A stretch of 64,000 nucleotides of DNA. Origin: Planctomycetaceae bacterium. Its GTDB lineage: Bacteria; Planctomycetota; Planctomycetia; Planctomycetales; Planctomycetaceae. Position numbers and translations under genes: made by a program. The stretch lies in contig JAHBXV010000023.1 in assembly GCA_019636285.1 (NCBI GenBank), positions 1 to 64,000 of the forward strand. Direction: 5' to 3'. Within the stretch, counting starts at the first letter, position 1. Each line of letters begins with the position of its first letter. The notes below the pieces were generated by a model. It had not been told where the DNA came from, searched no databases, and was given only the letters and a program-made list of their open reading frames with translations. Positions 31,604 through 39,783 of the stretch are shown here, one piece after another.

Positions 31604-31974
31604 GAAACTGCGCAAGATAGAACCTCCCCCACCCCCTGCGAAGGGTGCGGGATGGTATGAGCGGTCGCGACGAACCGTCAAGGCGGCTTTTAATCGGGCA
31701 AATCGTCGTTCACCCCCAACTCCCTCGGTCGTGACCCACCATCGGAGAAGGGCTTCCGCCGAGCACCCCAATTCATCAGTTCAACTCAAACCACCCCATC
31801 TAACATTCCTGAGATTAGGGCCTTGTCCGCCTGACACCTGGAGAAACAATTCTGACGAACTTAGCGAAACAACAAAAAACACGTTGATATTTCCGGTTCG
31901 GAAAAATAGGGTAATTCGATCCCGGCGATGGACGCTGGAACCAATTTGAAACGCCTGCAAAAGAGGTCGCGCCA
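31604..31974. other. Divergent intergenic region with AT-rich promoter block
   Basis: The region separates the glycosyltransferase (minus) from secreted protein A (plus). The right half, about 31840-31920, is unusually AT-rich for this genome and contains the promoter-like block given separately. Nothing was recognised in the left half. Confidence 0.5.
31884..31912 (+). promoter_or_regulatory. Candidate promoter of secreted protein A with inverted repeat in the spacer
   Basis: TTGATA (31884-31889), a 17-base spacer and TAGGGT (31907-31912). The spacer starts with the perfect inverted repeat TTTCCG-gtt-CGGAAA (31890-31904) and ends with an A-run. The same arrangement precedes the homologous gene at 34443, which supports function. 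Confidence 0.55.
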
Positions 31975-33285
31975 ATGTGGACGGCAACCCCTCAACCCCG
32001 GTACTGGTCCGAGCGGAACCAGGCCAAAAGTCATCGGGCATCGCTGGGCAAGTGCTCGGCGGCGGACCACCAGATTCGGGTGGGTCAATCCGGGCGCAAA
32101 GTTGCCCAGGTCGTTTGTGCCCTTTTCCTGGCCGCGACGGCCTCGTCCGTCTTCGCCGGAGCCGGAACCGATGAGCGCATTGGCGAACCCGGCGTTTACT
32201 ATGTCGATCCGGAGTTTCACGCTCCGACCAGGCATATGGCGTGGCAGGACTTTAACAGTAACGATGTCTGGATCTGCCAGATCGATGCCCAGACAGGGCG
32301 GCTCATTCCTGCCAACGGCAAGGGAATTCGCCCCCCGGTCAAAACGGTTTCCATCTTCAAGTCCTCTCAGGGAAGCGGGTCGTTCAACGGTCCCGAACTC
32401 GGTTTCTCCACGCGCGGCCTGTTCGCTTACTACACGATCCGCGACGGCAACGGAGTGAATCAGACAGCCCGCTTTGGCCCGCTGGACCGGGGCACTCCCA
32501 CCTATCTCCAAATCTCGCGAGATGAACGATTTGGACGGGCCGGCGCGCTGCCGACGATCCTGCCGGACTTCCCCGAGGTGGCCTTGCTGAATATCTATCT
32601 CGATCGCCTGCGGGGGCAGACCGGATGGAGCTTTGAAGATACCCCCAACGATAAAAACATTGTTCCCACGGCTGAAATCAGCCTGAAGGGCCCCCGCTGG
32701 GTGCCCGGTGAATTGGCGATTTCGACCAATATCCAGACGTCGGATCGCACGAAACAAGCCGCGATCTACGATGTCGAAACCGGCACGACGAAAGTGATCA
32801 CGAACGATGCAGGCCACAAGACCGAGGTCTTTGTCTTCAACTGTCCGGAGACTGGCACTCGCGCCGCCATGTGCCTGGTCGGAAACGCGCAGCGCGAATT
32901 GGCCGTCTACAAAGAGGCGTCCCCCTATTGGGAAAAGATCGCCTCCATTCCCTGCCCGACGTTCGTGGTCGGCGGCGGAATCTTCGGAGCCCGCATCTAC
33001 CTGCCCGAGCCATTCGTGTTCCAGGGCAAGTCGTACTTCACGTTTGTGGTTGGCAAGGTCAACACGCGAACGCTTGCGGTTAAGGGACCGTCACAGGTCT
33101 TTGTTGCCCAACTCGGCCGGCCGGAGGCCGTGCAGATCGGCTCAACCAATGCGGCTGCCCGGCTCGACCCGGAAGCCCTTGTTCTGTCAGATCGCGTCTA
33201 CTTGTACTACTACATCGGCGTGGCCGAGGGCTCGAACATGCAGCCTGAATTGCATGTTGTTAAAGACTTCTTGCCGCTTCCCTAA
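31975..33285 (+). CDS. Secreted protein A of a two-copy family, unknown function
   Basis: A 436-residue protein with a long leader. About 42 polar/basic residues precede a hydrophobic export segment (VAQVVCALFLAATASSVFA), followed by the mature start GAGTDERIGEPGVYYVDPE. The body is beta-rich, with repeated aromatic and D-x-x-T-G-type turns (CQIDAQTGRLIP, YDVETGTTKVI, ELAVYKEASPYWEKIA), suggesting a propeller; this is a guess from pattern only. GAGG at 31963-31966 sits 8 bases before ATG 31975 and supports the long leader. It shares roughly 70% of residues by eye with the protein at 34443-35759, and ends with the same HVVKDFLPLP. I do not recognise the family. Confidence 0.8.
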   Translation: MWTATPQPRYWSERNQAKSHRASLGKCSAADHQIRVGQSGRKVAQVVCALFLAATASSVFAGAGTDERIGEPGVYYVDPEFHAPTRHMAWQDFNSNDVWICQIDAQTGRLIPANGKGIRPPVKTVSIFKSSQGSGSFNGPELGFSTRGLFAYYTIRDGNGVNQTARFGPLDRGTPTYLQISRDERFGRAGALPTILPDFPEVALLNIYLDRLRGQTGWSFEDTPNDKNIVPTAEISLKGPRWVPGELAISTNIQTSDRTKQAAIYDVETGTTKVITNDAGHKTEVFVFNCPETGTRAAMCLVGNAQRELAVYKEASPYWEKIASIPCPTFVVGGGIFGARIYLPEPFVFQGKSYFTFVVGKVNTRTLAVKGPSQVFVAQLGRPEAVQIGSTNAAARLDPEALVLSDRVYLYYYIGVAEGSNMQPELHVVKDFLPLP

Positions 33286-33328
33286 GGGGTGATGGCATAT
33301 TGCCCCCGAAGGCAATCGGGACCGAGCG

Positions 33329-34132
33329 TTACTTCAGTTCGACGAGTTCGGGCCGCGGCAAGTCCTTGAGGCTTCTCAGGCCAAACAGGGCCAGGAACCG
33401 TTCGGTTGTGCGATACTGGACCCGGCGGGCATCTCCCGATTCCCGTTCGATAGCCAGCAACTGACGTCGCACGAGCTGCCGCAACGTCCCTCCACACTGC
33501 GGCTTTCCCAGTTCCTGAATTTCGTTCTGCGCGATTGGCTGCCGATAAGCCACCAGCGCCAGAACTTCCAGTGCCTCCTGGTTCAGCCGAACTTCCTTCG
33601 GGCCCTGGCCGTGAACTCGATCGCGCACGCGCTCGTAGTCGTTCAGCAACCGCAGGGAGTAGCCCCCTTCGACCAGAACAACGCGGTAGGGGCGGTTTTC
33701 ATCGACATAGAGTTGATTCAACCGCTCGAATTCGTCTCGAAAGTACTCGGCCGAAAAGCTGTCCCGAAAGAGGGTTCCCAACTGCCGCAGTGACACGGGT
33801 TCCGGCGACACGAACAGACAGCCCTCCAGAATCTGCCGGGGGTCAACCGGCACCGGGGTGTCATCCGGCGGCGTAGACGGTTCGACCGGGGGGGAGGCTT
33901 CAGCGATTGCGGATGGACTGGCATGCAAACCAGCCACGATGGCCGCGGTTCGAGGCTGCAACTCGGGCGGCCGATCGGCGGCAATTTCCACTTCGGACGC
34001 TTCGAGAGCTTCGAGTGCCCTCTGGTAAGCATCCTCAAGTTCGTCTCCGGTCCACTCGACCGGTGTCATGTCCCAGGATTCCCGCAGGAAGTCGGTGTCC
34101 TCGGAATCGGGAGATTCATCAGTCGAGTTCAT
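33329..34132 (-). CDS. scpB: Segregation and condensation protein B
   Basis: A 267-residue kleisin-partner protein that works with ScpA and SMC in chromosome condensation. The conserved double winged-helix region spans ~100-260, with ILEGCLFVSPEPVSLRQL, LVEGGYSLRLL, the signature LNQEALEVLALVAYRQPIAQNEI and VQYRTTERFLALFGL. The first ~95 residues are acidic, low-complexity and not conserved, as is common for ScpB. No scpA or smc is adjacent. It lies between two homologous secreted-protein genes on the opposite strand. Confidence 0.93.
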   Translation of the reverse strand: MNSTDESPDSEDTDFLRESWDMTPVEWTGDELEDAYQRALEALEASEVEIAADRPPELQPRTAAIVAGLHASPSAIAEASPPVEPSTPPDDTPVPVDPRQILEGCLFVSPEPVSLRQLGTLFRDSFSAEYFRDEFERLNQLYVDENRPYRVVLVEGGYSLRLLNDYERVRDRVHGQGPKEVRLNQEALEVLALVAYRQPIAQNEIQELGKPQCGGTLRQLVRRQLLAIERESGDARRVQYRTTERFLALFGLRSLKDLPRPELVELK

Positions 34133-34442
34133 CGCGAACGTCCCTTCTCGCGATCGATCGGCGGCCCTGCACGATCACCCCGCGTCCGTAGGCAACCAGC
34201 GTGATAAAGCAGATTCGGCAACCCGGTCAAGGCCGCGTAGCGCTCAAGCCTTTCCTCCCTCGATCCCTCGGAGGCGTCTACTCTTCGCAATGCCAAAAGC
34301 CCGTATATCTGGAGAAAAAACAGATTATGGAGATTGTGATGAATTTGAGTATTTTGCGTTGAACTTTCGGCCTGCCAAAAATAGTGTGTTTCATTCCGGT
34401 TAACTGAAATCGAATATTTTGTACACTACGAGGTCGAGAAAC
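34133..34442. other. Intergenic region upstream of secreted protein B
   Basis: Separates scpB (minus) from secreted protein B (plus). Positions ~34290-34430 are strikingly AT-rich relative to the surroundings and contain the promoter block listed separately. No gene was recognised. Confidence 0.5.
34359..34387 (+). promoter_or_regulatory. Candidate promoter of secreted protein B, matching that of protein A
   Basis: TTGAAC (34359-34364), a 17-base spacer and TAGTGT (34382-34387). The spacer holds TTTCGGC-ct-GCCAAAA (34365-34380), an inverted repeat with one mismatch, and ends with an A-run. Element order and spacing match those at 31884-31912, although the arm bases differ (CCG/CGG versus GGC/GCC), so pairing is kept while sequence changes. 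Confidence 0.55.
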
Positions 34443-35759
34443 ATGTTCACGGCCCCTTCGCCAGCCCTGTGCTTTGCCCAGTCGCGCCAAGCTTCCTCCT
34501 ATCGCCCTGACGACAAGTTCGCCCAGAGGCAGCGTCCAGGGATCCGGCATCTGTCCGCCGGACTCCTGGTTGTCATGGCCGGCTTTGTCGGGATCACGAC
34601 TGGGCCCGCGATTGCTGGCGTGGGGACGGATGAGCGGATCGGCCAATCGGGCGTTTACTACGTCGACCCCGAATTGCACGCCCCCACGCGCCGCATGGTG
34701 TGGCAGGATTTCATCAATAACGATGTGTGGGTCTGCCAGATCGATACGCAGACCGGGAGGTTGATTCCAGCCAACGGCAAAGGTCTGCGGGCTCCCGTGA
34801 AGACTATTCCAATCTTCACGGGAGCGACCAACTCAGGTTCGTTCAACGGACCGGAACTGGGTTTCTCGGCCCAGGGGCTGTTTACCTTCTACACAATTCG
34901 CGATGCGAACGGCGTCAATCAGACGGCGCGCTTCGGTCCGCTGGATCGCGGCACTGCCAGCTATCGCCAGATTTCCGCAGATCCTCGCTATGGCCGCAGT
35001 GGGGCAATCCCAACCCAACTGGGCAATCTTCCGAACGCCGCCATCCTGAACATCTATCTCGACCGCTTTCGGGGTCGTACAGGCTGGAGCTACGAGAACA
35101 CCCCGGAGATCAAGAATGCGATCCCCACCGGCGACATTTCGCTCAAAGGGCCCCGCTGGATTCCCGGCGAATTCGCGATTTCCACGAACGTCAAGACCGA
35201 GAGCCGTACGAAACAGGCCGCCATCTATGACATTCAGTCCGACACACTGACCACGATCACGAATGACAGCGGTCACAAGACCGAAGTTTTTGTCTTCAAT
35301 TGTCCGGAAACGGGAACCCGTGCTGCCATGTGTCTGGTCGGAAACGGCCAACGGGAACTCGCCGTGTACAAGGAAGCATCGCCGTTCTGGCAGAAAATCG
35401 CGTCGATTCCGGTTCCCAATTTCATTGTTGGCGGAGGCCGCCTGTCGACCGCGCGAATCTTTCTTCCGGAGCCGTTCGTCTTCCAGGGCAAGTCGTACTT
35501 CGTTTTCGTTGTCGGCAGAGTCAACGTGGACAGCCTCACTGTCGACGGACCCTCGCAGGTTTTCGTCGCTCAACTGGGCCGCCCAGAAGCCGTGCAGGTT
35601 GGTTCCTCATTTCCCGCAGGACGGATCGATCCGGAAGTTCTGGTTCTGCCAGATCGCGTCTATCTCTACTACTACACCGTAGTTCCGCCGCCGCCGGAGA
35701 CGCCACCGAACCTCGAACCGGAACTGCACGTGGTCAAGGATTTTCTTCCTTTGCCGTAG
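34443..35759 (+). CDS. Secreted protein B of a two-copy family, unknown function
   Basis: A 438-residue homologue of the protein at 31975-33285, with the same layout. A long polar leader (~38 residues) precedes the export segment (SAGLLVVMAGFVGITTGPAIA), then GVGTDERIGQSGVYYVDPEL. Strongly conserved blocks shared with A are QTGRLIPANGKG, GSFNGPELGFS, YTIRDANGVNQTARFGPLDRG, HKTEVFVFNCPETGTRAAM and LPEPFVFQGKSYF. B differs near the C-terminus by a Pro-rich insertion (VVPPPPETPPNLEPEL). GAGG at 34430-34433 lies 9 bases before ATG 34443; the upstream TTG at 34419 is not needed. The leaders differ more than the bodies, suggesting an old duplication. Function unknown. Confidence 0.8.
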   Translation: MFTAPSPALCFAQSRQASSYRPDDKFAQRQRPGIRHLSAGLLVVMAGFVGITTGPAIAGVGTDERIGQSGVYYVDPELHAPTRRMVWQDFINNDVWVCQIDTQTGRLIPANGKGLRAPVKTIPIFTGATNSGSFNGPELGFSAQGLFTFYTIRDANGVNQTARFGPLDRGTASYRQISADPRYGRSGAIPTQLGNLPNAAILNIYLDRFRGRTGWSYENTPEIKNAIPTGDISLKGPRWIPGEFAISTNVKTESRTKQAAIYDIQSDTLTTITNDSGHKTEVFVFNCPETGTRAAMCLVGNGQRELAVYKEASPFWQKIASIPVPNFIVGGGRLSTARIFLPEPFVFQGKSYFVFVVGRVNVDSLTVDGPSQVFVAQLGRPEAVQVGSSFPAGRIDPEVLVLPDRVYLYYYTVVPPPPETPPNLEPELHVVKDFLPLP

Positions 35760-37640: not shown

Positions 37641-39512
37641 TCAGCGAATCCGCTGCCAGCGCCAGAACTGCGGATAGAACGGAATCCGCGTGTGCGGATA
37701 GTTCTCGACGTACTGGCGATCCCGTTCCTGCATCGAATGATTCATGAGGGCCGGAACCGGCGCGTACCCCTTGCCATCGTTCAAGAACGGGATGCCATGC
37801 GGCCAGTAGATGCAGAAGGCTTTCCCCAGCATGGCGCTCCGGGGAACCGCGTGTCGATGAATCGCCTGCCGCTCGTTCGGCCACAAGCGGCTATCCTGAC
37901 TGCGCGGGCTGTTGTCGCCCAGCACGAAGAACTCATCGCTCGCCAGCCGCTCGAACGTCGCGACGTGATGCCGGGACTGATAGACCTCGCCGTACCGCTC
38001 GGGCTCGGAAAGCAGCCGCGAAAGGAGCGACATTTCGCTGGCCGGGACTTCAAACAAATGCCCGCTGTTTCGATCGGCCAGGTTGCTGGTTTGTTCGGCC
38101 CGATAGTAAATGTCTCGTTGCAGCAGTAAATCCCCGATCACGACCGCGAGATCGGTCGCGCCGATTCCCGCCGGTGCCAGGTCTTCCGATTGCGGCCGCG
38201 GATTGGGCGGCGCCTCGTACAAGGCCCCATCCCCGAAGTCGATCAGCGTGTCATTCAGCCACACGCACAATCGATCGTCCACGTTGGCAAAGCAGACATC
38301 AAAGCGACCGGTTCCCTTGAGGCCGGTGGTTGCCTCTCCCAAGAGAATGTTGTCCGCCGGGACCGAGCCATCACCCGGTTGCAGTTCGTCCGTCCGATAA
38401 AGCCGGGCCTGTCCCGTCGAGGGTTGAAATCGGCAACGGTACGTGCGAACCCCTTCCACGAGTTCCAGGACAAGCTCGCTCGACTCGGACGGAGCTTCCG
38501 TGATCTCGATGGTGGCGGTCATCGTCAGATCACCGACCCAGAAACAGTCGTCGATCATGCGACCATGTTCGCGAGGCTCGGTCTCGAACATGTTGTAACC
38601 GCAGAAATCGCTGATGAGTTCGGGCTTGGCCAGGTTGCTCACGTCGCCGTGAACCTCGAGTGTCGACCAGACCGTCGGCGACGGCACGAGATGCTGATAC
38701 CGCAGCCACCGCGTTTCAGGCGACTTCGCCAGCTTCATTCGCCGCGAATCGGCATCGCGGCTCCATCCGCTCTCGTTGACTCGCCAGTCTCTCTGTCCCT
38801 GGGCCGACGTCTCGGCCGCCATGCCGCGCCAGCGTTCCGGCCAGCCATGCTCCAGGAGGGCTCTCGGCGGATGATGATCGTCGTAGACCAGTTGCTGCAG
38901 CAGCCGCTGCTTATCCGGGTCGTCCTTGCGAAGAATGCGGTAGGGCTCGGAGGGCTCCTGGCGGGCGTAAACATCGCCCTGCTGAATCAGGATTTCTTCG
39001 CCCGGCAGGCCAACCAGCCGCTTGATGTAGTTTCGATCGGGATCCTCGGGATAGCGAAAGACCACCACGTCCCAACGCCGGGGATCGCCAAATTCGTACG
39101 GGAACTTATTGACCAGAATTCGATCGCCGCGAAAGACCGGGTCGTCAAAGACGTCGTTCTGATTGCGGCAGTTCGGACAGATCGACGACTTGACCCGCCG
39201 CTTGAGATACTTGCTGAACTCCGGATCGAGTTCGTCGCTCGCGCCGATCGAATACTCGCACCCGCATTCCGCGCAGACGACCGTCTTGTTGCGTCCCAGC
39301 AGCGTCGGCGCCATCGAGCCTGTCGGAATGACGAACGCCTCGGCGACGAACGCGCGGAACAGAAACGCCAGCACGAACGCGAACGCGATTGATTCGATGG
39401 TGTCCCGAGCCGACTCCCGATGACCAACCTGGGCCGTCGCCACGGACGTTCCCGACGTGGGATCGGCCTTGGCCGGGGTGGTGGGGGGACTCTTTTTGTT
39501 CTTGCCTGCCAT
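37641..39512 (-). CDS. lepB: Type I signal peptidase with zinc-ribbon and large internal insertion
   Basis: Membrane-bound Ser/Lys protease that removes signal peptides, here 623 residues against ~250-330 usually. A disordered N-terminus precedes one membrane span (~41-60). The catalytic Ser66 is in IPTGSMAPTL and the general-base Lys164 in NYIKRLVGLPGE. RGDRILV and FFVLGDNSPRSQDSR (from ~528) complete the conserved boxes. Between the Ser and Lys boxes sits a CxxC...CxxC segment (Cys80/83 and 112/115), a probable zinc ribbon. Between the Lys box and the final box is ~335 residues with beta-rich sequence (VLELVEGVRTYRCRF, VCFANVDDRLCVWLND) resembling a lectin/LamG-type sandwich. The start at ATG 39512 fits; longer frames add only low-complexity sequence. 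Confidence 0.9.
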   Translation of the reverse strand: MAGKNKKSPPTTPAKADPTSGTSVATAQVGHRESARDTIESIAFAFVLAFLFRAFVAEAFVIPTGSMAPTLLGRNKTVVCAECGCEYSIGASDELDPEFSKYLKRRVKSSICPNCRNQNDVFDDPVFRGDRILVNKFPYEFGDPRRWDVVVFRYPEDPDRNYIKRLVGLPGEEILIQQGDVYARQEPSEPYRILRKDDPDKQRLLQQLVYDDHHPPRALLEHGWPERWRGMAAETSAQGQRDWRVNESGWSRDADSRRMKLAKSPETRWLRYQHLVPSPTVWSTLEVHGDVSNLAKPELISDFCGYNMFETEPREHGRMIDDCFWVGDLTMTATIEITEAPSESSELVLELVEGVRTYRCRFQPSTGQARLYRTDELQPGDGSVPADNILLGEATTGLKGTGRFDVCFANVDDRLCVWLNDTLIDFGDGALYEAPPNPRPQSEDLAPAGIGATDLAVVIGDLLLQRDIYYRAEQTSNLADRNSGHLFEVPASEMSLLSRLLSEPERYGEVYQSRHHVATFERLASDEFFVLGDNSPRSQDSRLWPNERQAIHRHAVPRSAMLGKAFCIYWPHGIPFLNDGKGYAPVPALMNHSMQERDRQYVENYPHTRIPFYPQFWRWQRIR

Positions 39513-39783
39513 CAACCGCTCGCTCGTTCCGCAATTCGACCAAACTCGTGCCGATACAGTCTCTACGCATCCTACCCGACGACCCCGAATGCGGAAATCC
39601 GGAAACCGGCCGCATTCATCGGGAACTGCCAGCGCCGCGCGTTCGCCATCGCGACCAGTCACAAAACCGTAAGATACTGCGGTATAAACAGTTAAAAGAC
39701 AGCACCCCGTGCAGGGACGTGCCGCTTGAACCACGCCGTCGCACGAAGGGTTTCAAGTCGCCAGCCAGAACTTCAGACAGACT

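Follow-up and report, generated by a model that had tools for sequence, protein, structure and literature searches.

What is the role of the two similar sequence blocks that precede a pair of homologous genes in this planctomycete genome? The original prediction saw in them a shared promoter with an embedded inverted repeat, taken to be either a conserved operator or a hairpin with a regulatory role in some unknown regulon. Having followed up both parts of this proposal in the window (the whole 64,000-nucleotide stretch of DNA analysed, to which the coordinates below refer) and in the complete genome, we consider it quite probable that each block is a housekeeping sigma-70-type core promoter of the form TTGAnn-17-TAnnnT, ancestral to the gene pair, copied by duplication and kept by selection.

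The block upstream of gene A (31975–33285, forward strand; 436 aa) is TTGATA-N17-TAGGGT (31884–31912), and consists of the −35-like hexamer TTGATA (31884–31889), the 17-base spacer TTTCCGGTTCGGAAAAA (31890–31906), which carries a 6-bp inverted repeat, and the −10-like hexamer TAGGGT (31907–31912); the presumed ribosome-binding site, GAGGTCG, follows at 31963–31969. Gene B (34443–35759, forward strand; 438 aa), the paralogue of gene A, is preceded by TTGAAC-N17-TAGTGT (34359–34387): the −35-like hexamer TTGAAC (34359–34364), the 17-base spacer TTTCGGCCTGCCAAAAA (34365–34381) with an imperfect inverted repeat containing a C:A mismatch, the −10-like hexamer TAGTGT (34382–34387) and, again, a presumed GAGGTCG ribosome-binding site (34430–34436). 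All of these elements lie on the forward strand; the ribosome-binding sites are called from the sequence, the hexamers from the sequence together with the genomic spacing peak described below, and the repeats from pairing analysis and comparison with random spacers. The last base of the −10 hexamer is separated from the ATG by 62 bases in A (ATG at 31975) and by 55 bases in B (ATG at 34443), and common to both blocks are TTT after the −35 and AAAAATAG at the −10. The hexamers, exact spacer lengths, distances and ribosome-binding sites are all present as originally described.

The proteins encoded by A and B are 67% identical over 441 alignment columns, and the predicted homology is thus well founded; that they are secreted is suggested by a hydrophobic N-terminal stretch resembling a signal peptide, as judged by eye only. 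Searches of Pfam and NCBIfam returned no confident family for either protein, and a sequence profile gave no convincing match to solved structures. A structure model computed from five sequences is all-beta (mean pLDDT 71, pTM 0.74) and matches various beta-propellers, although the best match (E 2.4e-07, ~9% identity) does not of itself give a function. The two proteins probably represent exported beta-propellers of a rare, apparently undescribed family: there are four copies in this genome, of which the two more distant paralogues, C and D, lie on a different contig and show identities of 48% and 42%; the family is present in 2 of 397 genomes of the class, this genome included, and there is one distant Bacteroidales relative, which has a T9SS sorting tail. 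The 48%-identity paralogue is flanked on one side by a gene of the sulfotransferase family and on the other by a glycosyltransferase-like gene (L003, 17–1144 and 2799–4040). We found no genome close enough to supply true orthologues of A and B for comparing conservation between species; beyond this genome, the closest homologues share 32% identity. A and B themselves presumably arose in one local duplication; since scpB (33329–34132, reverse strand; Pfam PF04079, E 2e-34) lies between them on the opposite strand, a simple tandem duplication, head to tail, would account for the arrangement only if scpB moved in. Further along the window, an open reading frame of 697 aa on the reverse strand (37641–39734) contains segments that, by eye, resemble a signal peptidase, and looks unusually long for such a protein.

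Is the similarity of the blocks more than a remnant of the duplication? Gapped local alignment of the 200-base regions upstream of A and B gave a score of 16, which was equalled by 26 of 8000 random upstream-region pairs from the same genome and by 2 of 1770 low-GC upstream pairs (~0.1–0.3% across both controls). In the coding sequences, 41% of third codon positions and 33% of fourfold-degenerate sites (41/123) are identical, i.e. silent sites between A and B are saturated. Against this background, 20 of the 29 block positions are identical (69%), as compared to ~38–40% in the 40-base flanks (16/40 upstream and 15/40 downstream), and the block is therefore probably held by selection. The binomial probability of 20/29 at a 33% background is ~1e-4, before correction for the window having been chosen after it was seen.

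We then turn to promoter spacing in this genome. TTGA-N(s)-TAnnnT was counted in the upstream regions within ~1.26 Mb of the genome, delimited by rough gene calls (longest ORFs with GC3). Counting those of A and B, 16 sites 5' of genes have s = 17, while 8 have s = 18 and 6 have s = 16, as compared to a mean of 2.0 sites at spacings of 11–15 and 19–24; the peak at 17 holds even without A and B (Poisson P ~3e-8). Elsewhere, we detected one antisense s = 17 site and none in convergent intergenic DNA, and there is no peak in coding DNA. The separation is clear, not absolute: the reversed-sequence control of upstream DNA yielded 6 sites at s = 17. A preference of this kind, with 16 sites at 17 and about 2 outside 16–18, is that of a sigma-70-type promoter, and the simplest reading of the block is a housekeeping promoter of this type that both copies have retained. 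Together with conservation in the face of saturated silent sites, the genome's own spacing thus bears out the claim of a shared promoter block. The TTT...AAAAA spacer, in contrast, occurs in none of the 14 other promoter-like s = 17 sites and is therefore private to the A/B pair, most simply as an inheritance from the ancestral gene. Our literature search found no planctomycete promoter map.

The proposed regulon fared differently. An operator shared by a regulon should recur 5' of several genes, whereas an exact search for the block in the 6.37-Mb genome returned two places only, at A and B, as did a search allowing spacers of variable length. No sites were found at one or two mismatches, and the 34 sites at three mismatches compare with 29 in the reversed control. 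Nor was the block enriched across the class, with 5 matches in 296 other genomes as compared to at least 3 control matches. It is absent from all five other homologues found – the paralogues C and D, two genes in genome G024 and the Bacteroidales relative – none of which matches the block at more than 14 of its 22 fixed positions. We also considered the palindrome TTTCCG-N3-CGGAAA as an operator in its own right. While it occurs at 53 places as compared to 9 in the reversed control, the 3-base spacing is no richer than others (8 sites versus a mean of 8.3 over spacings of 0–40), and the excess therefore reflects word composition.

The inverted repeats give no better indication of a conserved hairpin. 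Spacer A forms 6 of 7 pairs about its own axis. Spacer B forms 6 of 8, with the C:A mismatch and with its axis located half a base further on, and at the columns of A it keeps just 4 of 7 pairs, three of which are the shared TTT/AAA. The prediction that the arms differ while pairing is kept therefore does not hold column for column: there are no compensatory changes between the two spacers of the kind that a conserved RNA hairpin would leave. Random spacers with the TTT...AAAAA ends fixed reach 6 pairs in 9.8% of cases. If the promoter call is right, a repeat between the −35 and the −10 should not be transcribed. Compensatory change is accordingly not to be expected there, and a protein-binding site is expected to conserve sequence rather than mere complementarity.

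How, then, do the alternatives stand? The spacer could be an operator for a dedicated regulator, either a repressor or a MerR-like activator, acting on A and B only. The AT ends, TTT...AAAAA, are kept in both copies despite the saturation of silent sites, and both spacers have some symmetry. We nevertheless regard this as unlikely: the half-sites differ (CCG/CGG in one copy, GGC/GCC in the other) where a protein site should keep its sequence, the genome has no further sites, the palindrome is not enriched at its 3-base spacing, and 17 bases fall short of the 19–20 bp spacers of known MerR-type promoters (PMC1526738). A related version, in which TTT-N9-AAAAA is an operator private to A and B and a putative regulator reads mainly the AT ends or DNA shape, strikes us as similarly improbable.

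A transcribed RNA hairpin regulating the leader, with transcription starting 5' of the block, is the least likely of the readings considered. While both copies can form imperfect stems, these are short, matched by roughly a tenth of random spacers, uncompensated and, in B, mismatched; the start predicted from the promoter falls downstream of where the hairpin would be, and the upstream flank, with its 16/40 identity, contains no conserved second promoter. Finally, chance or functionless leftover homology might be invoked, given that there are two copies only and that the features were chosen post hoc. This too appears very unlikely in view of the excess of block identity over silent-site identity, the rarity of equally high scores among random upstream pairs, and the fact that in both genes the block occupies a similar position ahead of the start and has the spacing that is typical here.

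Under the preferred reading of the blocks as ordinary promoters, the promoter would have stood upstream of the ancestral gene and been copied in the duplication that produced A and B; selection on promoter function would then have preserved the block, even as the non-coding DNA around it and the silent sites of the coding sequences drifted. Both hexamers would be bound by RNA polymerase carrying the main sigma factor, and transcription would start ~7 bases downstream of the −10, so that the leaders would be ~50 bases long and include a GAGG ribosome site. At the spacer ends, the T- and A-runs would have been retained because they belong to the promoter, as spacer and as DNA adjacent to the −10, and the GC-rich middle would have drifted, with its partial symmetry mostly incidental. 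Several observations sit less comfortably with this reading: as −10 elements, TAGGGT and TAGTGT match only moderately, other weak −35/−10 candidates 5' of B score equally, and the conserved TTT, A-run and some bases immediately after the −10 exceed the needs of two hexamers. The block reveals no new regulon; rather, it points to a preferred promoter spacing (TTGA-N17-TAnnnT) in a little-studied genome, and suggests that a core promoter can outlast silent-site saturation after duplication.

The housekeeping sigma-70-type promoter is TTGACA-N17-TATAAT. The blocks resemble it in having TTGA at the −35, a 17-base spacer and T1, A2 and T6 of the −10, as well as in being intergenic and preceding a gene that has a ribosome site; they differ in the remainder of the −10 (TAGGGT/TAGTGT) and in the extra conserved T- and A-runs at the spacer ends. 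With MerR-family (COG0789) promoters the blocks share an inverted repeat between the −35 and the −10. However, the MerR type requires the palindrome to lie within a 19–20 bp spacer (PMC1526738), while here the spacer is 17 bp, the half-sites differ between the copies and no regulon was found, and we therefore rejected this assignment.
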